Below are positions 18,205-63,643 of a stretch of 64,000 nucleotides of DNA, in pieces (the stretch's first letter is position 1; the number at the start of each line of letters is the position of its first letter). The stretch comes from Cytophagaceae bacterium. GTDB taxonomy: Bacteria > Bacteroidota > Bacteroidia > Cytophagales > JAIYAX01. The stretch lies in the NCBI GenBank assembly GCA_027488815.1, contig JAIYAX010000005.1, positions 1 through 64,000 of the forward strand, written 5' to 3'. The notes beneath the pieces were generated by a model. That model worked only from the letters and a program-made list of their open reading frames with translations, had not been told where the DNA came from and ran no database searches. A program made the position numbers and the translations under genes.

Positions 18205-18240
18205 TTGCTTGCAGATGGGCGTGCTAAGTTAGTGTATTTG

Positions 18241-47100: not shown

Positions 47101-47413
47101 CTTGCTGGATGAAGCCCCGGATTACTCGTTCCTGACAAAGGGTTGGGTTTTACTGGTTGAAAAGGGTGAACTTAAAGTCATCACAAAATCAGGAAACAAA
47201 GAAATCATGCAGGCAAATGACACCAGAAGCTTCTCTTTTTTAACGGATAACGAAGACCCTGTCGTAGAGATCCTCCCACAAGACCAAACCTTTTTTTATG
47301 GGCTTTCCGAAGATAAGTTTTTGGAGGTAATTGCATCCCATACCGACATGGCCAAAGTGCTGATTGCCTTTATTGACAAAGCTCAAATTCAACTGGAACC
47401 TAAACAGGCATAG
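44198..47413 (+). CDS. nucleotide-translocase-like (Npt1/Npt2) protein fused to HEAT repeats and cNMP-binding-like domain
   Basis: 1071 residues. The N-terminal 430 residues have about twelve membrane helices in the arrangement of ATP/ADP translocase (NTT, Npt1/Npt2) and MFS proteins ('LLLLNSFFLGLFLATFDVTA' in part, near 20; 'GFLQTRIAFSRL' near 70). Next a helical-repeat region (about 460-900) with HEAT-like units ('PFFNPLLRDPNSAVRQAAL' near 592). The last 130 residues (about 945-1060) start 'FKELPGDLIMELFKSM' and look like a degenerate cNMP-binding barrel. Start: TTG, because no ATG is found before the fourth helix. It precedes the TIR-STAND operon by 86 bases with its own promoter. Confidence 0.75.
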   Translation: MRTTLRGVLDISEAEERPVYLLLLNSFFLGLFLATFDVTASTLFIDTFSEKRLPEGFITSGVLGVIFTSAFGFLQTRIAFSRLAIYNQIFIFLVTVLLAVSLELNQKNENLIFLAFGLMLPLNTLALLGFYGTVSRSFNLKDEKRITGTVDQGQMIALTIAFFLIPFIQNIITDLAAYLFISGASVLIVLLFQAMFYGSVSGADRLFKSGSSKSTRPQVITYGQLFGERYMRLLVAFALLSAATVLVVEYNFLSVAAQQYPDTNSLANFLAYYGGILTIFSLVLQTFVADRVIASYGMKISLLILPLVVGIIALISSVIGLFFGASSSFEGFIFFFLFVAMTKLLHNATFDAFEDPISKTLFIPLDADIKLDAQSKINGFFREMAKIVVGAILIGLGLLQFASQALFTFILAAAMLYYGFLLIIIYNEYRKTLTNTLSKHKKEDDTDLNMEYDLTGLLKKNIRTSDLKKLGSGLRLLKKLNPLEYQFSLGLLLSNKTDSIRSLATNSITPFDFMIDQDLVKNRLNAENSTKIKKEIEEKLHELESTKFSVGSLNELSQSLKSRNYSDRLKAIALVPQFKGEELRPFFNPLLRDPNSAVRQAALLMATRLDDPYYYPLITENLANPEFSAAAASALVLAGDEAIPLLEGAFYRSGQSTGTMTLILQIYGRIATDKAIHAIWNKIDYPDAQIVSQVLYSLSTCGFMTTTENVARIRQTLEIEIGKVAWNIAAMEEFGDNNTEMLKEAMEEEIAADYQKIYMLLSLMYDPQSVQMVRSSVDSGTVEGLVYAIELLDVFLSDEIKPLLFPLLEDIPQSERNEKLQTHYPREDLTEDEVLVYIINRDYNYLNKYTKACALYVMASRQRPIPAQDVMANLFNPDPFLRELAAYLLLRGHREELVDCLQRLPDELQSELEAKLDYLDRTDISLEQQELLINKIYRFKKLELFKELPGDLIMELFKSMQLFSSERSLLDEAPDYSFLTKGWVLLVEKGELKVITKSGNKEIMQANDTRSFSFLTDNEDPVVEILPQDQTFFYGLSEDKFLEVIASHTDMAKVLIAFIDKAQIQLEPKQA

Positions 47414-47433: not shown

Positions 47434-47464
47434 TTTGATAATGTGAATGATGTCAATAACTTTA
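47434..47464 (+). promoter_or_regulatory. promoter of the TIR-STAND-adhesin operon
   Basis: TTTG (47434-47437), 19-base spacer, TAACTTTA (47457-47464), one mismatch to TAnnTTTG. About 36 bases before the ATG at 47500. Same -7 variant as before the NTT-HEAT gene, so both may be read together. Confidence 0.55.
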
Positions 47465-47499
47465 GTTCATTTCTGTACTTTCATTTAAAACCTTAAGTC

Positions 47500-48987
47500 A
47501 TGTTTGACTTTGATTATTACATCAGCTACAGTCCATCAGACAACCAGGCCTCCGATGGTGGCAAAGGGTGGGTGACCAATTTTCAAAAGTTTATTGAAAT
47601 ATTGATCACACAGCTTCTAGGCGAAAAACCAAGGGTACTTTTTTTACCCAATGGCGAAAAGCCACAGCAAAGCCAATTAGCTGCCTGTGGGGTTATGGTC
47701 AGCATTTATTCACCGGATTATGTGAGTTCTACCTCTTGTCTTGAAGACTTAGATGCTTATGCCCAGCTTAGTACACAGTCAGGTCTGGAGCTTAAAAGCA
47801 GGTTTTTTAAAGTAGTTAAGTACCCTCTGATTACTGTTGATGAACCCAGTCGTACCCGAGGCCTTATCAACTATGATTTGTTTGCTATTGATCCTGCCTC
47901 CGGACAGTTTGAGGAAATTAAGGATTTCCTGAGCAGAAGCGCCGACAAAGACTATTGGATGAGGCTGGCAGATTTAGCCTTCGACATTTTTGCAGCCATT
48001 AGAAACAACCGTCCCGGAGGTGGAAAAAAAGCTTTTTGGGAGAAGGATGTCAGGTACATTTATTTAGCAGAAGTAGGTCCTGAATTGGCAGTTTCCAGAT
48101 CTGTGATCAAAAGGGATTTGATCCGTCATGGCTTTACCATATTACCAGATGAAACTTTGCCAAATCAAGCTGCTGAGCTGGAAGTGGTGATCAAAAGAGA
48201 TATCAGCAGAGCAGAACTCAGCCTGCACATGATGGCAGATACTCCCGGCCGCATCATCAAAGATACTCAGGAAGGAATCGTGCAGTTTCAAAACCGAATA
48301 GCCTCTGAGTTTTTTCTGGCTGAGCATGATCCTCAAAATGCATCTCAGCTGAGCCGGGTGATCTGGGTAGACCATAACTCAAAGCAATCAACTCTGGCAT
48401 TCAAGAAGTACATTGAAGGTATCCGAAAAGACCCTGAGCTTAGTGTAGGCGCTGAAGTACTGGAAATGCCTCTGGAAGACTTTAAAGCTGTTCTTCGTGA
48501 ACGCCTTGACACCAATCAAAAGAATGCTGAGATCCAGAAAGTAGCAAAAACCCAAAGTGGTAAAACGATGAAATCAGGTAAAACAAGTATTTACCTCATC
48601 TATGATCTCATGGATGAACAGCCTGCCAAAATGTTAACTCAGAAGCTAGAAGAAATGCAGTTTGATGTGGTCATTCCTGATTTTACACATGGGTTCATGG
48701 AGATGAGAAATAGCCATCTCGAGAACCTTAAGAATTGCGATGCTTTTTTGATTTACAAAGATCAGGTCAACGACCGCTGGATACAGATGAAAGCACTGGA
48801 CACTTTAAAAGCACCGGGTTTGGGAAGAACCAAGCCCTTGGCGCCTAAATGTGTTTTCCACGCAAAAGGCAAGCCCATCACCAGTGCGGATCTTTCCGCC
48901 TATGCTATTTTGGTACTGGAAGAGGAGCAAAAAGGAACCGTCCAGACATTAGAGCCATTCCTTAACCAACTAAGTAAGAAATCATGA
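47500..48987 (+). CDS. TIR-like protein with three Rossmann-type modules
   Basis: 495 residues, no signal peptide, cytoplasmic. Module 1 (1-180): TIR-like, begins FDYYISYSPSDN as in TIR box 1 ('YDxFISYS'), with box-2-like IYSPDYVSSTSCLEDL at 69-84. The usual catalytic Glu (W/S-C-x-x-E-L) falls on Asp83; Glu82 is one residue earlier. Module 2 (about 183-345): 'VRYIYLAEVGPELAVSRSVIKRDL' (in part), a DUF4062/TIR-like fold found next to STAND NTPases. Module 3 (about 362-490): TIR-like, 'SIYLIYDLMDEQPAK' and 'NCDAFLIYKDQVNDRWIQMK'. Overlaps the STAND gene by four bases (ATGA), so its product is likely that protein's partner or effector. Confidence 0.8.
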   Translation: MFDFDYYISYSPSDNQASDGGKGWVTNFQKFIEILITQLLGEKPRVLFLPNGEKPQQSQLAACGVMVSIYSPDYVSSTSCLEDLDAYAQLSTQSGLELKSRFFKVVKYPLITVDEPSRTRGLINYDLFAIDPASGQFEEIKDFLSRSADKDYWMRLADLAFDIFAAIRNNRPGGGKKAFWEKDVRYIYLAEVGPELAVSRSVIKRDLIRHGFTILPDETLPNQAAELEVVIKRDISRAELSLHMMADTPGRIIKDTQEGIVQFQNRIASEFFLAEHDPQNASQLSRVIWVDHNSKQSTLAFKKYIEGIRKDPELSVGAEVLEMPLEDFKAVLRERLDTNQKNAEIQKVAKTQSGKTMKSGKTSIYLIYDLMDEQPAKMLTQKLEEMQFDVVIPDFTHGFMEMRNSHLENLKNCDAFLIYKDQVNDRWIQMKALDTLKAPGLGRTKPLAPKCVFHAKGKPITSADLSAYAILVLEEEQKGTVQTLEPFLNQLSKKS

Positions 48988-51900
48988 GTTCTGTAGAAGT
49001 ATCTGACTCTAAGGTTGAGCACATCAAAATCACCACAAATCCCTTTCCGGGATTAAGGCCTTTTAGTATTGATGAAAGTCACTTGTTTTTTGGACGTGAA
49101 GGCCAAAGTGACGAGGTCTTGCTCAAGCTTTCAGAAAACAAGTTCGTTTCCATTATAGGTGCTTCCGGAAGTGGTAAGTCCTCATTTATGTATTGTGGGG
49201 TTATTCCAATCCTATATGGTGGCTTCCTGACCGAGGCAGGCTCAAACTGGGATGTGCTGGCCTTCAGGCCCGGAGGCAGCCCGATTGACAACCTGGCTGA
49301 AGTGCTTCTCACCAAAGATGAAGCCTACCTTGAAGCGGATGATGAAGAAAGGCAAATTAGGAAGAAGATCATCTCCACTTTGCTTCGAACCAGCACCAAC
49401 GGTCTGGTGGAAGCCGTAGGCCAAACGTTGGTCACCCAAAACCGCAACATCTTATTGCTGGTCGATCAGTTTGAAGAACTTTTCCGTTTCAAAAAAACGG
49501 ATGAAGAGGCCGGAAATGAATCGCTTGCTTTTGTAAACCTGCTGCTGGAGGCCATCTCTACACCGGATACGCATATCTATGTGGCACTTACCATGCGTTC
49601 AGACTTTATCGGTGAGTGTGCACAGTTTCCTGAGCTGACCAAAAAAATAAACGACAGCCACTACCTCATCCCTCAAATGACGAGGGAGCAAAAGCGTATG
49701 GCCATCATTGGGCCGGTAGCTGTGGGTGGCGGTACCATCACGGCCAGATTGGAGCAGCAGTTGCTGAATGACCTTGGTGACAATCCAGATCAGTTACCCA
49801 TTCTGCAGCACTCCCTCATGCGTACCTGGGATTTCTGGCGTACCCACCGTGAAGGCAATGAAGCCATGGACCTCTCGCACTACGATGCGATCGGGCGTAT
49901 GGCAGAAGCACTCTCTCAACATGCCAATGAAGCCTATGACGAACTCAGCCCTGATGATAAGGAAATCTGTGAGCGGATGTTCAAAACCATCACCGAGAAA
50001 GGCGGTGACGTTCAGGGGATCAGAAGACCTACAAAACTTAAATCCATCGCCTCCATCTGTCAGGTTGAAGAGAGCAGGCTGATCCAAATCATCGATAAAT
50101 TCAGGGAGCCGGGTCGTTCGCTTCTAATGCCGCCTGCCGGAGTAGCCCTACACTCCGAAACCATCATCGATATTTCCCACGAAAGCTTGATGCGTATCTG
50201 GGTAAGGCTAAAAAACTGGGTGGATCAGGAAGGTGCTTCCGTACAGATGTACCTGAGGCTTTCCGAGGCCGCAGCCCTTTATCAGCTCGGTAAATCAGGC
50301 CTTTGGAGACCACCCGATTTGCAGTTGGCCCTCAACTGGCAGGACGAGCATAAGCCAACACTCGAGTGGGCCCGCCGCTACAACCCTGCTTTTGAAAGGG
50401 CAATCGTTTTCCTCGAGACAAGTAAAAACGCCTTTGAGACAGAGCAACGGATCAAAGAAATGCTGCAGCGCAAGAAACTGCGCCAGTCTAGACTGATAGC
50501 TGTGATCTTTGGTACGGCTACGGTGATTTCGTTATTCCTCTTGGTCTTTGCGGTGATCCAAAAGCAAAAGGCCGATGAGCAAACTGCCTTGGCAATCAAG
50601 GAAAAAGCCAGAGCAGAGAAAAATGAGCAGGTGGCCAATGAGCAAAAACTGATCGCCCTTGAAAGTGAGAAGAAAGCGATTGCCTCAGCCGAAGAAGCCA
50701 ACCGTCAGAAGAACATCGCAGAAGAGCAGAAGCAGTTGGCCGAAGCCAGTGCCGCAGAAGCCCTGCGTCAGAAAAACATCGCTCTGCTAAACGAGAAAGA
50801 AGCCCTTCGTCAGAAGAACATCGCTGTACAGGAAAAGGCCAGAGCTGAGGAAAACGAAAAGATAGCCAAAGAGCAGACCCTCAAAGCCGAGCAAAATGAA
50901 AAGAAAGCCTACCGACTCCGTTTGCTTTCCATTTCACAGTCCATGGCGGTAAAGTCCGTACAAATCCCCGATACGGTGCGAAAAAGCGTGGTTGCCATGC
51001 AGTCCTATGTGTTCAACAAGGAGAATGAAGGGCCTCAGCACAACCACGATGTGTTTGATGCCTTGTACTATGCCCTCAAGTCGCTGAAAGGCGATGATTT
51101 TAACCGACTGACCGGCCACCGTGATGCTGTAAGGTCCATCGCTCATAGCACCAATGGAAAGGTGTTGTACACAGGTGGCTCTGACGGACAAGTGCTCAGG
51201 TGGAAAGTGGAAGGTGCCAATTACACCAAAGAAAATTTTGTAAGTACCGGTAACTTGATCAGGAGCATCGCTGTGAGTGACAATGGGAAGTACCTGGCAG
51301 TAGCGATGGAGCAGCCGGGCATTTTGGTATACGATACCGATCAGCCCACTGCTACGCCCATCCGCCTGACAGGCCATGCCGGCATGGTCACTTCGGTTGA
51401 ATTTGTGCCCGGCACTACTCTTTTGGCCAGTGTGGGCACCGATAGCAGCGCCAGACTTTGGACCCTGCCTCAAGCGCAAGGCAGCCTGATCGGCACCGCA
51501 AACAGCAAGCTTAACACTGTAGCCACGAGCTACGACGGAAACCTGATTGCAGCCGTAAGCGACCTGGGTCAGGTGATGATCTGGAACCGGGCCAAAGACA
51601 ATCAATTGCTCACCTTAATCGAGACCGGAGGCCGTAAAATCTATGCCCTAGCCTTTGCCCATGAAAAACCATATCTGGCAGTAGGCGTAGGGACAGGTAC
51701 CATCAAAATCTGGAACTACCGTGAAAAGAAAGTGATCAAAACCCTTGTGGGCCATAGAGCCAGAGTAAACCAGGCAGCTTTCAGCTATGATGATAAAATG
51801 CTGGCTACCGGAAGCTTCGACAACACCATCAAACTATGGAATCTGGAGAATTTCAACGATCAGCCCATTGACCTGAAAGACCATAACTCCTGGGTTTGGT

Positions 51901-52127
51901 CATTATCTTTCAGCAGGGACAATAAGACCATAGTAGCAGGGTGCGTCGACAATCTGATACGGGTATGGCCAACGGATATAGACCAGATGGCTTCTCAAGT
52001 TTGTAGTCTGCTGCCCCGTAACATGACCCAGAAAGAATGGGAGCAGTATGTGGCAACCGACATACCCTATGAAAGTACCTGCAAAGGCTTACTAAAAGGA
52101 ACTGAAGACAGCAGCAACGAAGAGTAA
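48984..52127 (+). CDS. nSTAND1 NTPase with transmembrane helix, coiled coil and WD40 propeller
   Basis: 1047 residues. nSTAND1 NTPase (about 19-490): NPFPGLRPF at 19-27, FFGRE, Walker A GASGSGKSS at 59-67, Walker B LLLVDQFEE at 157-165, and 'LTMRSDFIGECAQFPEL'. Then one hydrophobic helix (about 504-526) after a cluster of basic residues (KKLRQSR), a charged coiled coil (about 527-640) and seven WD40 blades (709 to about 995, e.g. LTGHRDAV, LTGHAGMV, LVGHRARV, LKDHNSWV). By the positive-inside rule the NTPase is cytoplasmic and the propeller periplasmic. STAND proteins are switch ATPases that assemble after ligand binding. Coupled to the TIR gene. Confidence 0.9.
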   Translation: MSSVEVSDSKVEHIKITTNPFPGLRPFSIDESHLFFGREGQSDEVLLKLSENKFVSIIGASGSGKSSFMYCGVIPILYGGFLTEAGSNWDVLAFRPGGSPIDNLAEVLLTKDEAYLEADDEERQIRKKIISTLLRTSTNGLVEAVGQTLVTQNRNILLLVDQFEELFRFKKTDEEAGNESLAFVNLLLEAISTPDTHIYVALTMRSDFIGECAQFPELTKKINDSHYLIPQMTREQKRMAIIGPVAVGGGTITARLEQQLLNDLGDNPDQLPILQHSLMRTWDFWRTHREGNEAMDLSHYDAIGRMAEALSQHANEAYDELSPDDKEICERMFKTITEKGGDVQGIRRPTKLKSIASICQVEESRLIQIIDKFREPGRSLLMPPAGVALHSETIIDISHESLMRIWVRLKNWVDQEGASVQMYLRLSEAAALYQLGKSGLWRPPDLQLALNWQDEHKPTLEWARRYNPAFERAIVFLETSKNAFETEQRIKEMLQRKKLRQSRLIAVIFGTATVISLFLLVFAVIQKQKADEQTALAIKEKARAEKNEQVANEQKLIALESEKKAIASAEEANRQKNIAEEQKQLAEASAAEALRQKNIALLNEKEALRQKNIAVQEKARAEENEKIAKEQTLKAEQNEKKAYRLRLLSISQSMAVKSVQIPDTVRKSVVAMQSYVFNKENEGPQHNHDVFDALYYALKSLKGDDFNRLTGHRDAVRSIAHSTNGKVLYTGGSDGQVLRWKVEGANYTKENFVSTGNLIRSIAVSDNGKYLAVAMEQPGILVYDTDQPTATPIRLTGHAGMVTSVEFVPGTTLLASVGTDSSARLWTLPQAQGSLIGTANSKLNTVATSYDGNLIAAVSDLGQVMIWNRAKDNQLLTLIETGGRKIYALAFAHEKPYLAVGVGTGTIKIWNYREKKVIKTLVGHRARVNQAAFSYDDKMLATGSFDNTIKLWNLENFNDQPIDLKDHNSWVWSLSFSRDNKTIVAGCVDNLIRVWPTDIDQMASQVCSLLPRNMTQKEWEQYVATDIPYESTCKGLLKGTEDSSNEE
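50703..50824 (+). repeat. heptad-phased coding repeat in the STAND coiled coil
   Basis: The 17-mer CGTCAGAAGAACATCGC (encoding RQKNIA) occurs at 50703, 50766 (one mismatch) and 50808. Spacings of 63 and 42 bases are 3 and 2 heptads (21 bases), so the repeat keeps coiled-coil register. Confidence 0.8.
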
Positions 52128-52129
52128 CC

Positions 52130-53170
52130 ATGAACAAAATCCGATCACTTATTCTGCTTATCGCCCTGCTAGGTTTGACAGGAAGCCTGTCTGCTCAGAA
52201 CATTTGCAGTCAGAACCTGCTTGCTGCTCAACGTAAGTACGATCAGGGACAATTGATGGAAGTAAATAAGCTACTTGAGAAATGTCTTGAGACGGGCTTT
52301 ACCAAGGCTGAAAAGCTCCAGGCCTACCGGCTTTCTATCCTTTCCCTTCTCTTTCAAGATGAGCAGGAGCAGGCAGGGGAGTTGATGGTAAAGCTGCTTA
52401 AACAGGAGCCGAGTTATTTGCCTAATAGAGCCGTAGACCCTTCTGAATACATCATTCTCTACGATAGCTACCGAGCTGTGCCGAGGTTTGCAATCGGTAT
52501 CAGAGGAGGATTTAACAACACTCGAAACAGGATTCTGAATACCTATAGTCTCAGCAATACAACAGGTAACGAAGTAAAATATGACAATTTAACCTCTCTT
52601 AGCCTGGGAATTACTACCAGTACTGCATTGTACAAGAATCTCCACTTGAATTTAGATATTCTTTATGCTGGCAGGGGTTACTCAATTAATGATCCCTTTC
52701 TTGATTTTGTTGTCAGCTACGAGGAGAGGCAGAACTATCTGGAATTACCTTTGGGCCTAACTTATCTTTTTGGTAAAAGAAAAACGAGACCCTATCTTCA
52801 GGCTGGTGTCGCTACAGCTTTTCTGCTTGAAGCAAATGCACTTGTCCAAAGAAATCAACTGGATGGAACAAGAGAAGCCGTGGGCCCGGAGTTTTCTGTT
52901 TTAAACCTTCGAAACTCGATACAAACCTCTGCTTTCGGATCAATAGGAGTACGAAGGAAATTCGGAAAAGCAGAAGTATTTGCAGAAGCCCGTTACTACT
53001 ATGGATTGATGGTGAACAATAATCCTGATAAAAGGCTAAGCGACAAAGACCTCGTCTTCAGGTATGGCCATCTGGACAGTGACTACTCCCTAAACAATCT
53101 GATGATTTCAGTAGGGTTCCTACAAAACTTTTACTCCATACGCCGAAATAAGAAATTCAATGACCGCTAG
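52130..53170 (+). CDS. outer-membrane beta-barrel protein with TPR-like N-terminus
   Basis: 346 residues. Signal peptide 1-22 (ends SLSAQN). Residues about 25-110 form a helical TPR-like region ('AQRKYDQGQLMEVNKLLEKC' in part). From about residue 122 a beta-barrel of the PorT/OmpW-like type runs to the C-terminus ('FAIGIRGGFNN', 'LELPLGLTYLFGKRKTRPYLQAG' in part). Two bases separate it from the STAND gene, and its stop overlaps the next gene by 11 bases, so it is in the operon. It may be an outer-membrane anchor or channel for the lipoprotein and adhesin encoded downstream. Confidence 0.8.
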   Translation: MNKIRSLILLIALLGLTGSLSAQNICSQNLLAAQRKYDQGQLMEVNKLLEKCLETGFTKAEKLQAYRLSILSLLFQDEQEQAGELMVKLLKQEPSYLPNRAVDPSEYIILYDSYRAVPRFAIGIRGGFNNTRNRILNTYSLSNTTGNEVKYDNLTSLSLGITTSTALYKNLHLNLDILYAGRGYSINDPFLDFVVSYEERQNYLELPLGLTYLFGKRKTRPYLQAGVATAFLLEANALVQRNQLDGTREAVGPEFSVLNLRNSIQTSAFGSIGVRRKFGKAEVFAEARYYYGLMVNNNPDKRLSDKDLVFRYGHLDSDYSLNNLMISVGFLQNFYSIRRNKKFNDR

Positions 53171-54419
53171 ATCACTGTTGGCAATACTCAGTATTGTCGG
53201 ATTATTTTTACAAAGCTGTCAGCCTGAGGCTGTAAAAAACCCGGAATTCACGAAGAGGTTTTTGAAAATATACGGTGGAGCAGACGGGCAGAGTGCTTCC
53301 GAATGCATACAACTAAAGGACGGTGGCTATGCTGTAATTGGAACCATAACCGCTACAGATCAGCAGCAGGCTTATCTTGTTGCCACTGAAGCCGACGGTA
53401 ATATCAGATGGACAAGAACCATTGGCTCCGGACTTTTCACCAAAGGAATGAGCATGGAACTTGAGCCCAATGGAGATATTTTGATTGCTTGCCAACAGAC
53501 GGGTTCGAATGGGGTCACTTCTTCCTTGTTATTAACGTACTCACCCGAAGGCTCACTAAAGTCTTCTGTTGATGTTCGGAGATCTGGTTCAGGAAACCTG
53601 GACTATGCTGTTCAAAGGGTAAGGAGGGCAGCTGATGGTGGACTTTGCTTTGCAGGAACGACTAATGACACGGTCGGTACCGGCTTTACAGGAGCATTAG
53701 ATACTACTCAATTCCTCATTTTCAAAACGAATGCAGCGGGGTTGGTTACACATACCTTCGCAAGAGGATTTACGGGGGTGGATATTGGAATGACAGCCAC
53801 TCAGGCAACAGATGGATCGGTTTTTATGATTGGCAGCAGCCGGCTTAAACCCATTGCGGGTCAATTCCAGGATGATATGGTTTTTATCAAGGCTGCCCTT
53901 CAAGGTGATGGGACTATAGGTTCAAATAATGCCCCCACTAAATCTGACAACCAGGTTAACCCCACTAATCCCAAAGTTGAGCTTTCTGATGCACGAGATA
54001 TGGTAGTAGTGAGCCCAAATGAAGTAGTGATTGCAGGAAATACTGGTGATAACGAAATTTACATCAGTCGAATTAACCCTTTGGCAACTTCCAACAATAA
54101 TCTTGGGTTTATTCAACTGCCAATTCCTGGTGAATGTGAAGTAAACTCAATCATGCCCACTCCAGATGGTGGCTACATTCTGGCAGCTACAGGCAGAGGC
54201 AACGGACAAGGGAACGCAGGAGAAAACATGCTATTGATCAAAACCAACAGGCAGGGTGTTCTTTCCTGGTTCAGAGCTTTTGGAGGAGACCGAGATGACA
54301 AGGGGAAAATGGCTATTGCCACATCCGATGGCGGCTATTTGCTTACCGGCACACTAGGCTTTGAAGGTATACCTATGATTTGCCTCATCAAAACAGACCA
54401 AAACGGATTTATTGAATAA
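53160..54419 (+). CDS. lipoprotein with beta-propeller-like repeats
   Basis: 419 residues. Signal peptide with lipobox LFLQSC (Cys20), so a lipoprotein. The mature part consists of about six repeats with the pattern 'DGGY-x-x-x-G-T...-hydrophobic-K-T-x-x-x-G' (DGGYAVIGTI, DGGLCFAGTT, DGSVFMIGSS, VVIAGNTG, DGGYILAATG, DGGYLLTGTL) as in outer-surface propellers. No catalytic motif. In the operon it lies between the beta-barrel and the giant adhesin; its place suggests an outer-membrane lipoprotein partner of either. Confidence 0.82.
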   Translation: MTARSLLAILSIVGLFLQSCQPEAVKNPEFTKRFLKIYGGADGQSASECIQLKDGGYAVIGTITATDQQQAYLVATEADGNIRWTRTIGSGLFTKGMSMELEPNGDILIACQQTGSNGVTSSLLLTYSPEGSLKSSVDVRRSGSGNLDYAVQRVRRAADGGLCFAGTTNDTVGTGFTGALDTTQFLIFKTNAAGLVTHTFARGFTGVDIGMTATQATDGSVFMIGSSRLKPIAGQFQDDMVFIKAALQGDGTIGSNNAPTKSDNQVNPTNPKVELSDARDMVVVSPNEVVIAGNTGDNEIYISRINPLATSNNNLGFIQLPIPGECEVNSIMPTPDGGYILAATGRGNGQGNAGENMLLIKTNRQGVLSWFRAFGGDRDDKGKMAIATSDGGYLLTGTLGFEGIPMICLIKTDQNGFIE

Positions 54420-54434
54420 ATTTCAAAAGAAACG

Positions 54435-57400
54435 ATGCGACTTTTACAAATTATTTTCTCTTTTTCTATTTTCCTGTTGACTTTAGGTCAGCTTAAGGCA
54501 CAGGATTCTCTTCGGATCATCGCACCTTCAGCCTATCCCTGTATTGGAAACACCTCCTTCATTCCATTAGGTGATATTGTGATAGAAGAACTTTCTGCTG
54601 TTAATACTGCTATTCCCAATACTTCCGGCTCTACCGACTCCATCATTTTTAGGATTACCAATAGTAATCGATTTGAATTTGAAGTGCCTGATAACGCCAC
54701 CACCGTTCATTCCGGTTCATTAACTCTTGCAGATACCAGAACGTATACCTGGGGTGCATTAGGAGACACTCTGGTGTTTCGTTACAGACTTACAGGCTCG
54801 ACCAATGGAGGTGTAGACCGTTTTACCATTCAAGGGGTTCGGGTACGAGCCAAAGGAACTGTTCCGGGAGTTGCAGAAATCGTTAGAGTTGGAGGAAATA
54901 GTGCGTGGCCTGATATTCAAGTGGCCAATAACATCACTTTTGCGACACTTATCAGTGTGACAAGTGCTAATCAGAGCATCAATGCAGGCCTTGATCAAAC
55001 CAAGTGTTTTCCTGAGAGTTTTTCCCTGAGTGGAAGTCTTAACCTTACCTATCCTTATGCAGATACTGTATTGTGGTTTACTACCAATGGTGCAGGTTCA
55101 TTTTCTAGCACAAGTTCAAGAAACACAGTATACACACCAGCGCCGGCTGACACTAGTTTGGCGGGGCCGATTCAAATCAGATTTAGGCTTGACAACAATA
55201 ATTGCTTTACCACCCTTCAGGACACTTTGTTCTTGACCTTGAGCAAACGAATTCAGGTTGAGGCTGGTCCCGCTGATACCGTTTGTGCAAACGGTCCATT
55301 TCAATTAAACGGGAGCATTGTTCAGGGAGTAGCCACAGCTAGTGGTGTTTGGTCAGGTGGAGCAGGTACTTTTTTACCTAATAATTCCACTCTGAATGCA
55401 ACTTACACCCCGTCGGCAGCTGAAATCAGCGGTTCAGGCTTTTTCCTGACATTATCTTCTACAGTTGCAGCTTGCCAGTCTGTAAGGGATTCGGTTCGAT
55501 TGGTTTCAAACCCAAAGAACCGACCCTCCATCAATGCAGGAACCGATTTTTCGGTTTGTAGGGGATCAACTGTCTCATTGAGTGCTATTGTTTCAAACTT
55601 AGGATCCGCCACCTTATCTTGGAGTAAAGTACCCGGAGCGCCAGCTGGGTCATTTTCAGCAACCACTATCGTCAATCCGGTTTATACCCCTAGTAACGCT
55701 GATTATGACAGTGGTTCTGTACGATTGGTATTAAGCTCTGTAGGAGGAACCTGTGGAATTGTTACGGACACCATTCAAATTAATTTTCAAGCCTTGCCTA
55801 TTGCCTCATTAGTATGTTTAGATGCTGATACTACGATCTGTGCCGGTCAGCCCATTTCTTTTCAGGCTTTTGGTGGGGCAAGCTATCGTTTCCTGGTGAA
55901 CAATACACTTCAGGGTGCCTCTGCAACGGCTACCAATTCTTTTACTTCCACTTCGTTAGCCAATGGTGATACAATTAGAGCTAGGGTATTTAGCGGAGCT
56001 AGTGGAGCAGGTTGTGTGAATGCTACTAACTTCTTTAGAGTCAGGGTGAATCCCATACCTGCAACACCAACATGGACAGCAACTACACAAAACTTCGCCA
56101 ATAATGCGCCTCCGATTGAACTTGATAGTATTGGAACTCGTACCCTGGCAGGAGGTACATATAGCGGAACAGGAGTTATAGGAAATTTTCTATTTCCTTC
56201 GCAAGTAGCACCTGCCACTTCAACTTCAATTACATATAGTGTAATCGTCAATGGTTGCCCATCTAATCCTTCAGCACCGGTTACCTTTAATTTCTTTGAT
56301 CCTAATCAACCTATCGCAGGATTAGCTGCAGCCTATTGCTTTAATGAACCCCAAGACACCATTTTTGCTGATATTCCTCCTGGTAGAATATTCTTTGATT
56401 TCGGTTTTTTTAATGGTGCTGTTTTTGTTCCTTTTCCACCAGCAGATATACTTGTTACAGCCTCTAATGTTCGTGCAATTATTTTGCCTTCAACTCTGGG
56501 TAGTGTTGCGAATGGGGGCATTGGAACAAAAAGAGTTGTGTTAAGGACATACAGTTTTTCACCAGTATTTAATATCCAAGAATCAGCAGTTCAGAACACT
56601 AGAATCAATGCAAACCCAGTAATTACCATCACCAACGCTTTAACCGGAATTATTTGCGAAGGAACCAGACAAGACAGTATTCAAGTAAGTGTAACACCAA
56701 ACAATCCCGGATCATTTTCATTCTCTAATGCAGTAACACCCATTGCGGGCGGAGGAGCGAGATATAATACTCAAGACAACGGGGTTCTTCCTCTCTGGCC
56801 TTCAACGAGAACCGCCTCAATAGTTTTTACAGAGAGTGGAACGGGTTGCTCAGGTGCTACTAGCAATTCATTTTCTGTTACTAGACAACCAAACCAGCCT
56901 ATTCTCCCTGCAGATGATACCTTGTTATGTGCGGGAGTGCCATTGCCAACCTTTAATGCTATAATTGATACCACGGGAATATCATCGTTCATAACACGAA
57001 TTTTTTGGTTTAATGAGTCCAATTCCACCACCAATGGCATCATTGCATCAAATACCTCGATCTATCCACCAAGTGGAAGCGGAACTCAAACCTTTCAGGT
57101 AACTGATACATTGTATGTTCGTCAAAGGATTTTGTCAGATTGTTTTAGCGATCCTGCATCAATCATAGTAAGAATAAGCAACCCACCTATTCCAAATGCA
57201 GGAATTGCTGATACCGTTTGCGAAGGACAACCTATACCCATTGACGGTATCGTGAGCAATGCACCCGTTGGACTTACAACCTCATGGAGCACGGCTACCC
57301 CCAACCCGGGAAGTTTTACTAATACCACCTTGCTTACGGGGGTCACGTATACCCCTAGCCTGGCAGATCGCAACAGAGGCTTTGTGCGAGTACAACTCAC

Positions 57401-60400
57401 AACATCTGATCCTGATGGGCCCGGAGGTTGCCCGGAACAAGAAGCTGAAGTAAGACACATCATCAATAAGGTGGCCTCGCTTTTTGCAGGGAATGATACG
57501 GTAATTTGTGCAGGCTCTCCTATGACTCTTCGGCCGGCCATTACTCCTACTACACTGGGTGGGCGATGGTTTCCTCAGGACACTCTAGGCATCTTTACAT
57601 CAGGGGCTACAGTGCCGACACAGCAAAATTTCACACCCAGCAATGGTTTTTTGAGCCCAACTGATTCTACAAGGGTTCGGATGATCTTTCGCACAGATGA
57701 TCCGGATAATGCAGGACCTTGTACCGCAATAGAAGACACCATGTTTATCAGGGTAAACCCTAGAAATATACTCAATGCTGGAAGGGACTCTGTCTATTGT
57801 GAAAGTGCTGATACGATCACAAACATTGATATTAGAAGCACAATTGGAGTAACTTTTTCTGGTAATCCCCTAACGCCTTTGATCTGGTCAGCCAATGGGA
57901 ACCACAATGGCTTTGTCAATGCCTCTAACCTGCCTGATTCATTGTATCGATTGGACAATTCAAGAGCACGTACCTATCGTGCAAGTGCTGCTGATGTGCA
58001 AAGAGGATTTGTTTGGCTGGTGCTTACCGCACTGGACCCTGACGGTGGAGAACCCTGTACTCCTGTTTCTGACTCCATCAGAATTCAGATCAACCGAAGG
58101 CCCAGAGTAAATGCAGGGGTGGATCAAACCATTTGCTCCAATGGTGCGGTTCCGTTGAATGCAATACTATCGAGTAATGTAGCCGGAGCCTGGACATTGG
58201 GTGCCGGAACATTTAGCAGGCAAGGCCCTCTAGTAAACAAAAGATTGTATACAGATGCTCTTTATACCCCGGCCTTATCAGAAATTTCTGCAACAGCAAT
58301 TACAACTGTTTTATTAAGATGGCAGACCAACGATACCGACTCCACCGGACCTTGTCCGATAATTGAAGATGATATCTTGATTACGATTAATCCAAAAGCC
58401 ACGATACAGGTTGGGAATACAAGTGATACCATTTGCGCCGGACAGACCTTTACTTTTGCAGCAGCTATTGGAGGTGGGGCATCCTCTTCTACCTGGATAG
58501 GGGGGCAAGGCACATTTAACCCCTCCAGATCATCACCAACTGCAACTTATACACCTGACTCAACCGAGATACCACTTGTTACTAATTTCCGAAACATCAC
58601 ATTCAGTTTGGCTACCAACGATCCTGATAGTGCAGGCCCATGTCAGGCTGAAACTTTGAATAAACGTTTGGTGCTGAATAGAATACCTACGGTACGTGCA
58701 GACTCCGCAAGCAGAGACACCATTATTATTTGTAGCAATGAAACAGCCAGTTTGAAGAGTGTTTTAGGAGGCTCTGCCAGCGTCGCAACCTGGATAGGTG
58801 GAACGGGTACCTTTTCGAATAGAAACATTACAGCAGTTCTGAATTCCGTAACTTATGCTCCAAACCTTAATGATCCAAATGAGTACACACCGAATCAACC
58901 TCGGTTTATTACACTTATTCTGGAGTCAAACAGTTTTGACCAATGTGCTCCAGTAAAAGATACGGTCATTATTCGGGTCAATCCTATTCCCATTGTGAAT
59001 GCCGGCCCTGATCTGGTGATTTGCGCTGGTGACAGTACACAGTTAGGCGGATCATTCTCCGGTAGTACCACAGCGGTAGTATGGAAGGGAGGGCTTGGCA
59101 CCTTTGTGCCGAATAGAAACGCTGCCAATGCATGGTACATCCCCCATCCTTCAGAAATACCGCTTGCAACTCCAAATTTTACCATTACACTCAGGTTGTT
59201 TTCTGATGACCCTGATGGCTTTGATCCCGTGGCCGGGCCATGCGATAGTGTGTTTGATGTTAAAACATTGACGATAAACCGGATAAGAACGGTTGTTGCA
59301 GATACAAGCGGAAGAGATACGATTGTTTATTGCAGAGGAGCAGAATATCGTCTAGCAGCTGGTTTTTCGGTGCCGGGAACTACGGTGACATGGTCAGGAG
59401 GTACCGGTACTTTTAGCCCTACAGCAAACAGGTTCACTACATATCTGCCCGGGCCTGGAGAACTTGACTCTACTTCGACAGTATTTGTACGTTTACGAGT
59501 AACTACTGATGACCCTGACTCAATAAATCAAACCTTAAATGGCCCTTGTGGTAGGGTGTTTGATGAAGTGATTCTTCGTATTGATCCTGCAGTCGTAATT
59601 AATGCAGGTCCAGACCTTACCTATTGTGCCTCTCAAACTGTTCAGCTCTTTGGCGCTATAGGCGGCTCCGCAACTTCAGCAATATGGTCTGGCGGAACAA
59701 ATAATTTTAACAATCTTAATGCATTAAATGCAGTTTATTTTCCTGACAGTGCTCAGTTATTTCAGGATACTGTATTTAATCTGATTTTATTCTCAGCAAC
59801 TCAAGCGGGTAGCTCATGTCCTTCTAAGGCAGATACTGTACAGATAAGCTTATATGCAAACCCGGTCCTGAATATCTCATTGCCAGATACTCAGTTTTGT
59901 AATCTCCCAATACCGATTACTGGTCAGCTAAATGCAAGCATCATTGGAAAGCCATCTCTGCCTTCAAGCATTGCATCAGTCTCAGGGCCTGGAATTACCA
60001 ATTTCACCAGCGTAAACTTTACATTTAATCCAACGGTCGCAGGCGACTCACTTAAAATTATAACATATGCTTTCACCCGATTGGCAACAGAAGGTGATTG
60101 CTTCTCTGATACAACCCTTAACATTGTAGTTCACCCCCAACCGAGAGCTGCTTTAAAATGGAGTGGAACCTGCCAGGGAGACACTCTGCTGTTCTCTGAC
60201 TCGTCCAGACTTGACATTTCCAGACAGTTTTCACCCAATAGCATTGTGACATGGGCATGGGATTTTGATCTCGGCAGCATTGCCCAAGACAGTATTGGAG
60301 GTATACCTAGTGACTCTTCTTACTTACAAAACCCCTCTTACTTCTACCGCACTCCTGGTCTGAAACGACCCTCTTTAACGGTGACCACTAACAACAATTG

Positions 60401-62294
60401 CACCAGCAGAGCAGATTCGATCTTTGCGATAGGGGCACGTACTAAACCTGATTTTTTCTGGCGTTTTGTTTGCCCGGCTGACTCTACGTTCTATAGTGAC
60501 TCACTTTCAGTCACAGCAGGAGCCGGTAATGTTACATTCCGTCGATGGGTTTTTGGTACCGGGACTGTCATACAAGGCAGTAGTTCTAGTTTAAATACCA
60601 TTAGGCATCAGTACCCCGGACCTGGTGCTTATACGACCCGTTTGGTACTTGGAACCCAATTCGGGTGTTTGGACTCCATATCAAGAACGGTCAACATCCT
60701 GGCCAGCACCAGCCCAACTCCTTTGGCCCCTTACGTACAGGATTTCGACTCCAACAATGGTTTCTGGGTTTCTGGTGGAGTGAATAACGATTGGGGTTAC
60801 GGACAGACCACAAATCCAAACAAAGATTTTGTGCCTAAGTATCCTACGGATAGGTACTGGATGACATCACTAAATGATACGATCTACAATAACAATCAGG
60901 CTTCATTTGTTAACGGACCTTGCGTGAATTTTGAAAATCTCGAGAAGCCTATGTTGGTGTTTGATTATAAAAATGAAACCACTATTGGTCAAGATGGGGC
61001 AGTGATCCAGTATTCTATTGATGGGGGAATCAATTGGTTGTTGCTGGGTAGCCTGAATTCTGGTATAAACTGGTACAACAGACGAGATCTTTCAGGTAAC
61101 CCTGGCGGGCAATTGATCGGTAACTTTGGCTGGAATGACACCACACCAGATTTATGGAAAACCGCAAGACATTCACTAGATGTAATTAAAGAACTTTCAG
61201 ATCCTGATTTGCAGAAAAAAGTTCGCTTCCGTATTTTCTTCGGGTCTGATGCAGCAAGCCTTCCTACAAAAGCAGAAGGATTTGCCATTGACAATTTCCG
61301 CATCGAAGACCGAACTCGTCTGGTGCTTTTGGAATATTTCAACAACGTGAATGTCGCATTCTCAGCAACAAACAACTCGGTTTATGCCTCCATTATTCAG
61401 GAGATGGAAAAAGATGCAGTGGGTACTGCCTACTACCTCAGCGGCAACAATGATCCCATTAACCAGCGAAATCCGGCTGATCCATCAGCCAGAGCGTTGT
61501 TCTATGGTATAAGTTCTCCAAACGAAGTAGTGTTTAACGGTAAAGGGGTGTTCCCTTTGGCCCTTCGTGACAGTGTAGGCCCTAAGAGAATTGAATTGCA
61601 ATCACTTTTACCTCCCAAATTGAAACTTGATGTAGTTGGGTTTAGTGCAAACCAGGTGACATCCACCGTAGGAATTAAGTTAGAGGCAAAAGACAGTATT
61701 CCTCCAAACGCCAGATTACATGTGGGCTTGGTAGAGAGTGTGGTTTATGTGCCGGCTTTTGATAACCCAAGCCAATTGAGAGCGTATTCTTGGGTGCTCC
61801 GAAAAATGCTACCAAATGCAGCAGGGACATTACTTAACCCCTCATTCAATAGTATTGGTGACACACTTTATTACAGCTTTACAGACACTCTCGAGGATGG
61901 GCTGGTAAATGATTTGAGTAGGCTGGGTGTAGTTGCATTTGTACAAAACTCCCAAACTAAAGAAGTTGAACAGGCCGCCATTTTCAGATCAGCCAACTGG
62001 AACATCGTTGGCCTTCCTGATGGCCTCATCGATGCCACGGAGCTGGGTATTTTCCCTAACCCTGCCAATGAGAAGCTGACGCTTCGATTTAGCGAGCCTA
62101 TCCAAAAGCCTATGCACTACACCCTCGTCGATCTGATGGGTAAAACCATGCTCGAAGGCGTGCTGCAAGCGGATACGCAGGAGACTGAGCTCAGGACAGA
62201 GGAGCTCAAATCGGGTATGTACATCTTCCGACTGTACTCACCTGATAGCCCTGAGCAGGAGCTAATCACAAAGAAGATTATTATTCAGCATTAA
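54435..62294 (+). CDS. giant T9SS-secreted repeat adhesin
   Basis: 2619 residues. Signal peptide 1-22 (ends LKAQD). Residues about 180-1810 hold about a dozen modules of roughly 95-125 residues, each with a 'N-A-G-x-D-x-x-x-C' start (INAGLDQTKC, VNAGPDLVIC, INAGPDLTYC) and a 'W-x-G-G-x-G-x-F' turn (VWSGGAGTF, TWIGGQGTF, VWKGGLGTF), as in PKD-like modules of Bacteroidota adhesins. Then two PKD domains (about 1900-2085), a jelly-roll region (about 2100-2290), an Omp28/thioredoxin-like module (about 2293-2500) and a T9SS type A sorting domain (about 2536-2619, GIFPNPANEKL). It is exported by PorV/PorU. Last gene of the operon. Confidence 0.9.
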   Translation: MRLLQIIFSFSIFLLTLGQLKAQDSLRIIAPSAYPCIGNTSFIPLGDIVIEELSAVNTAIPNTSGSTDSIIFRITNSNRFEFEVPDNATTVHSGSLTLADTRTYTWGALGDTLVFRYRLTGSTNGGVDRFTIQGVRVRAKGTVPGVAEIVRVGGNSAWPDIQVANNITFATLISVTSANQSINAGLDQTKCFPESFSLSGSLNLTYPYADTVLWFTTNGAGSFSSTSSRNTVYTPAPADTSLAGPIQIRFRLDNNNCFTTLQDTLFLTLSKRIQVEAGPADTVCANGPFQLNGSIVQGVATASGVWSGGAGTFLPNNSTLNATYTPSAAEISGSGFFLTLSSTVAACQSVRDSVRLVSNPKNRPSINAGTDFSVCRGSTVSLSAIVSNLGSATLSWSKVPGAPAGSFSATTIVNPVYTPSNADYDSGSVRLVLSSVGGTCGIVTDTIQINFQALPIASLVCLDADTTICAGQPISFQAFGGASYRFLVNNTLQGASATATNSFTSTSLANGDTIRARVFSGASGAGCVNATNFFRVRVNPIPATPTWTATTQNFANNAPPIELDSIGTRTLAGGTYSGTGVIGNFLFPSQVAPATSTSITYSVIVNGCPSNPSAPVTFNFFDPNQPIAGLAAAYCFNEPQDTIFADIPPGRIFFDFGFFNGAVFVPFPPADILVTASNVRAIILPSTLGSVANGGIGTKRVVLRTYSFSPVFNIQESAVQNTRINANPVITITNALTGIICEGTRQDSIQVSVTPNNPGSFSFSNAVTPIAGGGARYNTQDNGVLPLWPSTRTASIVFTESGTGCSGATSNSFSVTRQPNQPILPADDTLLCAGVPLPTFNAIIDTTGISSFITRIFWFNESNSTTNGIIASNTSIYPPSGSGTQTFQVTDTLYVRQRILSDCFSDPASIIVRISNPPIPNAGIADTVCEGQPIPIDGIVSNAPVGLTTSWSTATPNPGSFTNTTLLTGVTYTPSLADRNRGFVRVQLTTSDPDGPGGCPEQEAEVRHIINKVASLFAGNDTVICAGSPMTLRPAITPTTLGGRWFPQDTLGIFTSGATVPTQQNFTPSNGFLSPTDSTRVRMIFRTDDPDNAGPCTAIEDTMFIRVNPRNILNAGRDSVYCESADTITNIDIRSTIGVTFSGNPLTPLIWSANGNHNGFVNASNLPDSLYRLDNSRARTYRASAADVQRGFVWLVLTALDPDGGEPCTPVSDSIRIQINRRPRVNAGVDQTICSNGAVPLNAILSSNVAGAWTLGAGTFSRQGPLVNKRLYTDALYTPALSEISATAITTVLLRWQTNDTDSTGPCPIIEDDILITINPKATIQVGNTSDTICAGQTFTFAAAIGGGASSSTWIGGQGTFNPSRSSPTATYTPDSTEIPLVTNFRNITFSLATNDPDSAGPCQAETLNKRLVLNRIPTVRADSASRDTIIICSNETASLKSVLGGSASVATWIGGTGTFSNRNITAVLNSVTYAPNLNDPNEYTPNQPRFITLILESNSFDQCAPVKDTVIIRVNPIPIVNAGPDLVICAGDSTQLGGSFSGSTTAVVWKGGLGTFVPNRNAANAWYIPHPSEIPLATPNFTITLRLFSDDPDGFDPVAGPCDSVFDVKTLTINRIRTVVADTSGRDTIVYCRGAEYRLAAGFSVPGTTVTWSGGTGTFSPTANRFTTYLPGPGELDSTSTVFVRLRVTTDDPDSINQTLNGPCGRVFDEVILRIDPAVVINAGPDLTYCASQTVQLFGAIGGSATSAIWSGGTNNFNNLNALNAVYFPDSAQLFQDTVFNLILFSATQAGSSCPSKADTVQISLYANPVLNISLPDTQFCNLPIPITGQLNASIIGKPSLPSSIASVSGPGITNFTSVNFTFNPTVAGDSLKIITYAFTRLATEGDCFSDTTLNIVVHPQPRAALKWSGTCQGDTLLFSDSSRLDISRQFSPNSIVTWAWDFDLGSIAQDSIGGIPSDSSYLQNPSYFYRTPGLKRPSLTVTTNNNCTSRADSIFAIGARTKPDFFWRFVCPADSTFYSDSLSVTAGAGNVTFRRWVFGTGTVIQGSSSSLNTIRHQYPGPGAYTTRLVLGTQFGCLDSISRTVNILASTSPTPLAPYVQDFDSNNGFWVSGGVNNDWGYGQTTNPNKDFVPKYPTDRYWMTSLNDTIYNNNQASFVNGPCVNFENLEKPMLVFDYKNETTIGQDGAVIQYSIDGGINWLLLGSLNSGINWYNRRDLSGNPGGQLIGNFGWNDTTPDLWKTARHSLDVIKELSDPDLQKKVRFRIFFGSDAASLPTKAEGFAIDNFRIEDRTRLVLLEYFNNVNVAFSATNNSVYASIIQEMEKDAVGTAYYLSGNNDPINQRNPADPSARALFYGISSPNEVVFNGKGVFPLALRDSVGPKRIELQSLLPPKLKLDVVGFSANQVTSTVGIKLEAKDSIPPNARLHVGLVESVVYVPAFDNPSQLRAYSWVLRKMLPNAAGTLLNPSFNSIGDTLYYSFTDTLEDGLVNDLSRLGVVAFVQNSQTKEVEQAAIFRSANWNIVGLPDGLIDATELGIFPNPANEKLTLRFSEPIQKPMHYTLVDLMGKTMLEGVLQADTQETELRTEELKSGMYIFRLYSPDSPEQELITKKIIIQH

Positions 62295-62367: not shown

Positions 62368-62396
62368 AAAAAAACCCCGATTTCCCGGGGTTTTTT
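62368..62396. terminator. bidirectional terminator after adhesin and hmgA
   Basis: CCCCG / CGGGG stem with loop ATTTCC, flanked by A7 on the left and T6 on the right. Serves the adhesin operon on the plus strand and hmgA on the minus strand. Confidence 0.85.
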
Positions 62397-62482: not shown

Positions 62483-63643
62483 TTATTTTAACCAGCTTTT
62501 TGGATAGCTCTCGTCCACAAACTCAAGAGCTTGCGATGTCAGATAGAGAGGCTTGAAGGTGTCAATCATCACAGCCAGCTCATTGGTCTCCTTTGCACCG
62601 ATGCTGGCCTCTACCGTGCCGGGGTGCGGGCCATGAGGCAGGCCACCGGGGTGTAGCGTAAAGGAAGCCCTGTCGATGCCTCTCCTGCTCATAAAGTTGC
62701 CTTCCACATAGTAGAGCACCTCATCCGAGTCGATGTTGCTGTGGTTGTAAGGAGCAGGGATAGCAAGCGGATGGTAGTCAAACAGCCGGGGCACAAAAGA
62801 ACAGATCACAAAATTGTGCGCCTGGAACGTCTGATGCACAGGTGGCGGAAGGTGTATCCTGCCGGTAACCGGCTCAAAATCATGGATCGAGAAACAGTAG
62901 GGATACAAAAAGCCATCCCAGCCGATCACATCAAGAGGATGGTGACCATAGTAGTAATGGTGCATATAGCCTCCCTTTTTGATCTTCAGCAGAAACCTGC
63001 CTTTCTCATCACGGGTGATGAGCTCTGAGGGCGGCCTGATGTCACGTTCACAATAGGGGGCATGCTCCAGCAATTGTCCCAACTGGTTGCGGTAATGCTT
63101 CACCGTCTCCACCGGGCTGAAGGACTCGATGATGAGCAGTCGGGTATCAGCCTGGTCAAAGTGAAGCTGATAGATGGTGGTGCGTGGGATCAACACATAG
63201 TCTCCCTGCCTGAAATGCAATCTCCCAAACTGGGAGTCCAGATACCCGCTCCCATCATGCACAAAGAGCACCTCATCTGCTTCACCATTTTTATAGAAGT
63301 AATCCATGTCAGTAGAAGACGGATTACAGATGCTAAGCGTCACATCCTGATTGGCGAGCAGCGTTTTTCTTGATTCCAGAAAGTCAACACCGGTACGCTT
63401 TGCCTTGGAGGTCTGTAGGTGGGTTTGCAGCAAAGCCCGATCTTTCAACAGCTCAAATCCATAGGGAAGCGGCTCACCTACCTCTGTGACTTGTGTCGGC
63501 GGCACGATATGGTACAGGTTTGAGTAGATACCTGAAAAGCCATGGGAACTTACCAACTCTTCTGCATAGAGGCTTCCATCGGGTTGCCTGAATTGGATGT
63601 GTCTTTTGGGAGGGATTTGCCCCAACCGGTGGTAGTATGACAT
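62483..63643 (-). CDS. hmgA: homogentisate 1,2-dioxygenase
   Basis: 386 residues. Opens the ring of homogentisate in tyrosine/phenylalanine breakdown, using Fe(II). N-terminus 'YYHRLGQIPPKRHIQFR' and 'SSHGFSGIYSNLYHIVPPT' are family features. The C-terminal cupin holds the iron site: 'PPPVHQTFQAHNFVICSFVPR', and 'NHSNIDSDEVLYYVEGNFMSR' with His and Glu, then 'LHPGGLPHGPHPGTVEAS' with final His. Three bases after the preceding open frame. No other tyrosine-degradation gene is within the window. Confidence 0.95.
   Translation of the reverse strand: MSYYHRLGQIPPKRHIQFRQPDGSLYAEELVSSHGFSGIYSNLYHIVPPTQVTEVGEPLPYGFELLKDRALLQTHLQTSKAKRTGVDFLESRKTLLANQDVTLSICNPSSTDMDYFYKNGEADEVLFVHDGSGYLDSQFGRLHFRQGDYVLIPRTTIYQLHFDQADTRLLIIESFSPVETVKHYRNQLGQLLEHAPYCERDIRPPSELITRDEKGRFLLKIKKGGYMHHYYYGHHPLDVIGWDGFLYPYCFSIHDFEPVTGRIHLPPPVHQTFQAHNFVICSFVPRLFDYHPLAIPAPYNHSNIDSDEVLYYVEGNFMSRRGIDRASFTLHPGGLPHGPHPGTVEASIGAKETNELAVMIDTFKPLYLTSQALEFVDESYPKSWLK

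Follow-up and report, generated by a model that had tools for sequence, protein, structure and literature searches.

A six-gene set of Cytophagales joining a STAND NTPase to outer-membrane and T9SS surface proteins, a candidate trans-envelope signalling module

STAND NTPases are usually regarded as cytoplasmic immune switches, and 8-stranded barrels of the OmpA/OmpW type serve as anchors in the membrane or as receptors, not as wide pores. The locus described here shares nSTAND1 NTPase, WD40 and TIR_2/DUF4062-like domains with TIR/NACHT/STAND conflict systems and with Swarozyc, in which DUF4062 proteins are NADases with a conserved catalytic Glu, E97 of KpSwz (PMC13174449). Its first gene resembles in its three-part architecture the NTT-HEAT-cNBD fusions already described, the function of which is unknown (Major et al. 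2017, PMC5381601). Two further systems are comparable in their arrangement: FecA-FecR, in which an outer-membrane protein likewise contacts an inner-membrane signalling protein through an N-terminal periplasmic domain, as is inferred for the present module, and LapD-LapG-LapA, in which an inner-membrane nucleotide-responsive protein is tied to a giant adhesin.

The window, the whole stretch of 64,000 nucleotides that was analysed, carries a gene set without a counterpart among the named systems and domain families of the resources searched. No description of this set or of the docking domain of its outer-membrane protein was found in the open-access literature, to which the claim of novelty is limited.

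Gene content, order and distribution

The five ORFs of the original prediction were confirmed in the window, with their coordinates and their spacing of -4, +2, -11 and +15 bases, all on the forward strand (+). They encode a TIR-like soluble protein of 495 aa (47500-48987), an nSTAND1 NTPase followed by one transmembrane segment, a coiled coil and WD40 repeats, of 1047 aa (48984-52127), an outer-membrane barrel protein of 346 aa (52130-53170), a lipoprotein of 419 aa (53160-54419) and a giant surface protein of 2619 aa (54435-62294). The product types proposed for nSTAND1-WD40, barrel and T9SS tail are backed by Pfam and structure, and that of the TIR-like protein by its relatives and fold. 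The five genes are real, but the unit comprises six, as an NTT-like inner-membrane protein encoded at 44198-47413 (+) had been missed. The 86-base gap between the NTT-like and TIR-like genes may contain a putative internal promoter; the promoter scan used a sigma-70 model, which is uninformative for this phylum. A terminator-like hairpin with a T tract is located 3' of the last gene (62369-62396, +). Convergent with the operon lies a gene for a homogentisate 1,2-dioxygenase-like protein (62483-63643, -), with a score well under the curated cut-off.

Synteny was determined in 80 loci of named Cytophagales genomes (Chryseolinea, Fulvivirga, and MAGs of Cyclobacteriaceae and Flammeovirgaceae), gathered by an alignment-based TIR scan of genome contigs; a single-sequence TIR query gave no matches. 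The order NTT-like, TIR-like, nSTAND1-WD40, outer-membrane barrel, lipoprotein and giant T9SS protein was kept in nearly all of them. The NTT-like gene was located 5' of the TIR gene in all 69 loci with sequence there (median gap 13 bases, against 86 in the window), the STAND gene directly followed TIR in 79 of 79, the barrel gene was next to STAND in 70 of 72, and the lipoprotein gene adjoined the barrel in 66 of 67. The giant protein gene followed the lipoprotein in 49 of 65 loci, and nearly all of the other 16 showed an ORF in the same place and on the same strand, cut by the edge of the contig or locus. This conserved order is far beyond chance. The test set by the original prediction, co-occurrence of the envelope genes with the TIR-STAND pair, therefore does not refute it, as they adjoin almost always, and the single cytoplasm-to-surface gene set that it described holds across these loci.

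In other families of the order, 20 more neighbourhoods showed mostly the same arrangement. Variants included a HAMP-SpoIIE phosphatase gene between NTT and TIR (L031, L034, L037 and L041), copies without TIR (L046, L047, L137 and L138) and split loci (L036 and L043). A distant stand-alone pair of TIR-like and nSTAND genes, without barrel, lipoprotein or adhesin, was also observed (L048, 10706-15060).

In a sample of 396 genomes of the phylum, the full-length barrel family was confined to Cytophagales, where it was present in 22 of 59 genomes at E <=1e-8, a few matches being weak and partial. The gene queA, named by eye from its sequence, was located just upstream in 53 of 67 named loci, which indicates a stable chromosomal address, although the upstream gene of the window is not queA. 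The window genome harbours a single copy of the module. The module is probably inherited vertically within Cytophagales, as part of the explanation favoured below.

Cytoplasmic and inner-membrane components

The NTT-like protein showed about 12 hydrophobic segments or peaks by hydropathy, HEAT repeats (HEAT_2 in the window copy) and a C-terminal cyclic-nucleotide-binding-like domain. Members of its family match TLC ATP/ADP transporter, HEAT and cNMP_binding; the transporter family itself (PF03219) was matched by two of 16 members and not by the window copy.

Three domains of TIR-like/Rossmann-like type make up the TIR-like protein, which has no hydrophobic segment; the central domain resembles DUF4062. 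The window gene alone gave a weak match only (FxsC TIR-like, E 2e-5), while TIR_2 was found in 13 and DUF4062 in 15 of 20 family members. Its AF2 model (pLDDT 81.6) retrieved with Foldseek the plant and animal TIR domains of SNC1, RUN1 and MyD88 (TMt ~0.6), and on the model together with TIR_2 in relatives the TIR fold was assigned. The position of the TIR catalytic Glu, after the SP..C motif and aligned to CLNEL of SNC1, is occupied by Asp83 in the window, and Glu was present in two of 80 relatives. At the column which we take to be the catalytic one of DUF4062, assigned by motif from general knowledge of this domain and not by superposition, the window has Gln262, and 75 of 80 relatives have Asp and four Glu. 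In the wider family set 11 of 20 members keep Glu at this position, so NADase activity may survive in some lineages, although by the same criterion not in the window. The reading of the window copy as a NADase was dropped, both candidate catalytic Glu being replaced, and the protein is probably not an enzyme. Since both sites have lost Glu and some copies lack the gene altogether, TIR is unlikely to be the killer, and the role of answering effector that the original prediction gave to it is not sustained.

These data also bear on an anti-phage or abortive infection function, in which the envelope parts would sense phage adsorption and the TIR/DUF4062 protein would cleave NAD. In its favour, TIR together with STAND recalls immune modules, the DUF4062 proteins of Swarozyc act as NADases (PMC13174449), and barrel and lipoprotein are the fastest-diverging parts (mean identity 0.31 and 0.29, respectively), as expected of phage-exposed components. 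Against this stand the replacement of both catalytic Glu, in the window as in most relatives, and the TIR-less copies; a PADLOC search for catalogued defence systems gave weak partial matches only, and the fixed queA address and the co-inheritance of the cytoplasmic genes are unlike mobile defence islands. We consider this function very improbable, and the phage response originally proposed is not supported.

The STAND protein matched nSTAND1 of Pfam (E 4.3e-94) and WD40. Its Walker A and B motifs are intact in the window and essentially invariant in 71 sequences. Hydropathy revealed one transmembrane segment (aa 504-527; 50493-50564, +), rich in K/R on its N side, between the NTPase half and the coiled coil and WD40 propeller (51081-52103, +). 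This single hydrophobic segment and its charge bias suggest a cytoplasmic NTPase half and a periplasmic WD40 half.

Envelope components and the docking domain

The AF2 model of the barrel protein (OMP_b-brl_2; pLDDT 91.4) showed an N-terminal helical domain followed by an 8-stranded barrel, with OmpA/OmpW as the nearest structures by Foldseek. A pore is unlikely with only eight strands in the model, and this candidate function was rejected. The helical domain, designated here as docking domain, is TPR-like and comprises about 100 aa (aa ~22-120; 52193-52489, +), with two nearly invariant cysteines, Cys26 conserved in 64 and Cys52 in 60 of 71 relatives. It belongs to no Pfam family: the window copy gave no Pfam match and other copies gave weak TPR matches only.

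The lipoprotein contains delta-60-like, propeller-like repeats, with a weak match to delta_60_rpt. Its lipobox Cys20 is kept in 67 of 68 relatives; as only 24 of 67 have at least two acidic residues after this Cys, its surface exposure is uncertain. The giant protein presents PKD (PKD_4) and Por_Secre_tail (E 2.5e-9) domains and a signal peptide judged by eye; its N-terminal repeats (54435-60011) are variable among relatives and its last ~750 residues (60012-62294) are conserved. The genes porV (494 bits, NF033710) and porU, the sortase (1164 bits, NF033707), are located side by side at 17035-22104 (-) of the window, some 25 kb away from the operon, the last product of which depends on T9SS, and SprA was found in the same genome. 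The giant protein thus combines a sorting domain with a T9SS in the genome, as a T9SS type A substrate does. A T9SS type A sorting domain is also present in an M43 metallopeptidase encoded at 31028-33313 of the window.

Co-evolution was assessed by mirror-tree distances on 60 complete loci, and partial correlations were calculated on 49 non-redundant loci with the NTT and TIR distances removed. NTT, TIR and the NTPase half of STAND were correlated with each other at 0.94-0.98, and the two fast-evolving envelope proteins, barrel and lipoprotein, at r 0.91. The WD40 half was intermediate between the cytoplasmic and outer-membrane blocks and reached r 0.87 with the docking domain, which in turn was correlated with its own barrel at 0.63, a lower value; its preference for WD40 is modest, since NTT, TIR and the NTPase half also reached 0.80-0.82 with it. 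Partial correlations were 0.46 between WD40 and docking domain and 0.42 between WD40 and barrel (permutation p 5e-4 each), and -0.12 between the NTPase half and the barrel. The co-variation of WD40 and docking domain is as expected of a trans-periplasmic contact and suggests it without proving it, as correlations are not contacts and the pairs are not independent.

Across Bacteroidota, the docking domain is found on several protein types, as a mobile domain. Three weak matches of the full-length barrel search in the 396 genomes covered this domain alone, and a search with the domain only gave matches in 28 of them. Outside the module it forms the N-terminal part of TonB-dependent receptors, of T9SS proteins and of barrels of other kinds. 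In G315 it precedes the plug and barrel of a TonB receptor, with an nSTAND1-WD40 gene beside it and NTT-HEAT one gene further, and in G271 and G392 it is N-terminal to a T9SS tail protein or to another type of barrel, with a transmembrane PEGA-domain Ser/Thr kinase and PP2C as neighbours. Among the locus neighbourhoods it preceded a TonB receptor only in L134, L158, L160, L161 and L165; in L134, L158, L160 and L165 these receptors adjoined nSTAND1-WD40 genes. All four TonB-receptor versions with a full-length STAND had it directly upstream, and these STANDs formed one group (support 100/99). Of 37 docking-domain genes outside the Cytophagales-type module, 30 were within two genes of a kinase-like gene (25) or a STAND gene (5), against three kinases in 354 more distant ORFs of the same neighbourhoods (p ~4e-38 under that background). 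Adjacency in the kinase loci could reflect co-regulation rather than contact. Recurrent operons of PP2C, PEGA Ser/Thr kinase and docking-domain genes (L155, 10437-13016; L157, 5508-10216; L148, 6654-10870; and similar ones) were observed in other Bacteroidota, frequently with a gene for a T9SS-tailed protein, and to our knowledge they have not been described. Two tandem docking domains were found within one ORF of 437 aa (L164, 9437-10750).

Several module copies are located in or beside contractile injection clusters (L042, L050, L040, L045, L035 and L051), with sheath, gp19 tube, baseplate, Pvc16 and M23-LysM peptidase genes. The second module copies of G004, G046 and G055 adjoin genes for sheath, tube, baseplate and Pvc16, and the STANDs of these copies formed one clade (100/100) with the M23-linked STAND of G030. 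Pvc16 was absent from the window genome and from most module genomes, so coupling to contractile injection is not the rule, and a general coupling was rejected in favour of a single paralogous clade. The original prediction had overlooked both the docking domain and the variants, which are coupled to kinases, to TonB receptors or to genes of contractile injection.

The distribution of the docking domain also weighs on a purely structural or adhesion operon, in which the adhesin and its outer-membrane anchors would be accompanied by a cytoplasmic quality-control ATPase and no signalling would occur. This reading is consistent with the tight, fast-evolving block of lipoprotein and barrel followed by the T9SS adhesin gene, but it leaves the kinase and TonB-receptor partners of the domain unexplained, as well as the SpoIIE and contractile injection variants, and we regard it as improbable.

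Proposed function and comparison with known systems

The best explanation of these data, with a probability of about 0.6, is a trans-envelope signalling module. The STAND protein would reside in the inner membrane, its NTPase half facing the cytoplasm and its coiled coil and propeller the periplasm, where WD40 would dock on the N-terminal helical domain, with its two cysteines, of the OmpA-like outer-membrane protein. The latter would act in concert with lipoprotein and giant T9SS protein. An event at the surface would most likely be passed inward, from barrel and docking domain to WD40, which would control nucleotide-driven assembly of STAND. The output would proceed through the NTT/HEAT/cNBD protein and, where present, the TIR-like protein as a non-enzymatic adaptor, and in some lineages through the SpoIIE-type phosphatase or contractile injection genes. 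From the relay proposed originally, a link between the surface and a cytoplasmic switch remains plausible; the answer by TIR and the sensing of phage are not supported.

The main rival reverses the direction: STAND would sense the internal nucleotide or energy state via NTT/cNBD and act outward by WD40 and barrel, so that the giant T9SS protein is assembled, held or released by the logic of LapD-LapG-LapA. The giant protein being the last gene and its C-terminal part the conserved one agree with this, and HEAT and cNBD in the NTT protein suggest nucleotide sensing, such fusions being known (PMC5381601). On the other hand, inward flow is favoured because the docking domain occupies the place of a signalling domain on TonB receptors and occurs beside kinases with PP2C phosphatases, and copies linked to contractile injection, such as L045, have no adjacent adhesin. 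Outward control is possible but clearly the less probable direction.

A wider proposal, which we put forward tentatively and at somewhat less than even odds, is a phylum-wide signalling class, in which the docking domain on outer-membrane or secreted proteins would engage inner-membrane switches at their periplasmic part, which is WD40 in STAND NTPases and PEGA in Ser/Thr kinases. Control of a giant T9SS surface protein and of contractile injection machines would be among the outputs. A STAND with a periplasmic sensor half and an outer-membrane partner would constitute a new signal route across both membranes. Through the docking domain, contractile injection loci, T9SS proteins, TonB receptors and orphan Ser/Thr kinases of Bacteroidota become connected, and this domain of 100 aa with its neighbour gene offers a simple handle on what the kinases and STANDs sense.

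Compared with TIR/STAND conflict systems and Swarozyc, the window copy lacks the catalytic Glu and its STAND is predicted to cross the inner membrane; the module has fixed outer-membrane partners and no defence-island features were seen in it. Unlike the NTT-HEAT-cNBD fusions already described, its first gene is locked into one set with STAND and envelope genes, and few of its family match TLC. With respect to eCIS (AlgoCIS, PVC, T6SSiv), one STAND-barrel clade adjoins their sheath, tube, baseplate and Pvc16 genes, whereas standard copies carry the giant adhesin instead; no STAND-barrel partner is mentioned in those passages of the AlgoCIS papers and the eCIS survey that were searched. The adhesin of the module uses T9SS, in contrast to LapD-LapG-LapA, with which we know of no homologous part. 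As to FecA-FecR, the docking domain precedes the TonB receptor in four loci in the way that the STN domain does in FecA. It differs in being helical and TPR-like, with two Cys and no STN match found; it has STAND NTPases or Ser/Thr kinases as partners in place of a FecR-type anti-sigma factor, and the outer-membrane part of the window is an 8-strand OmpA-like barrel rather than a TonB plug with a 22-strand barrel. The module is thus best read, by analogy, as similar to FecA-FecR in logic and unrelated in its parts.
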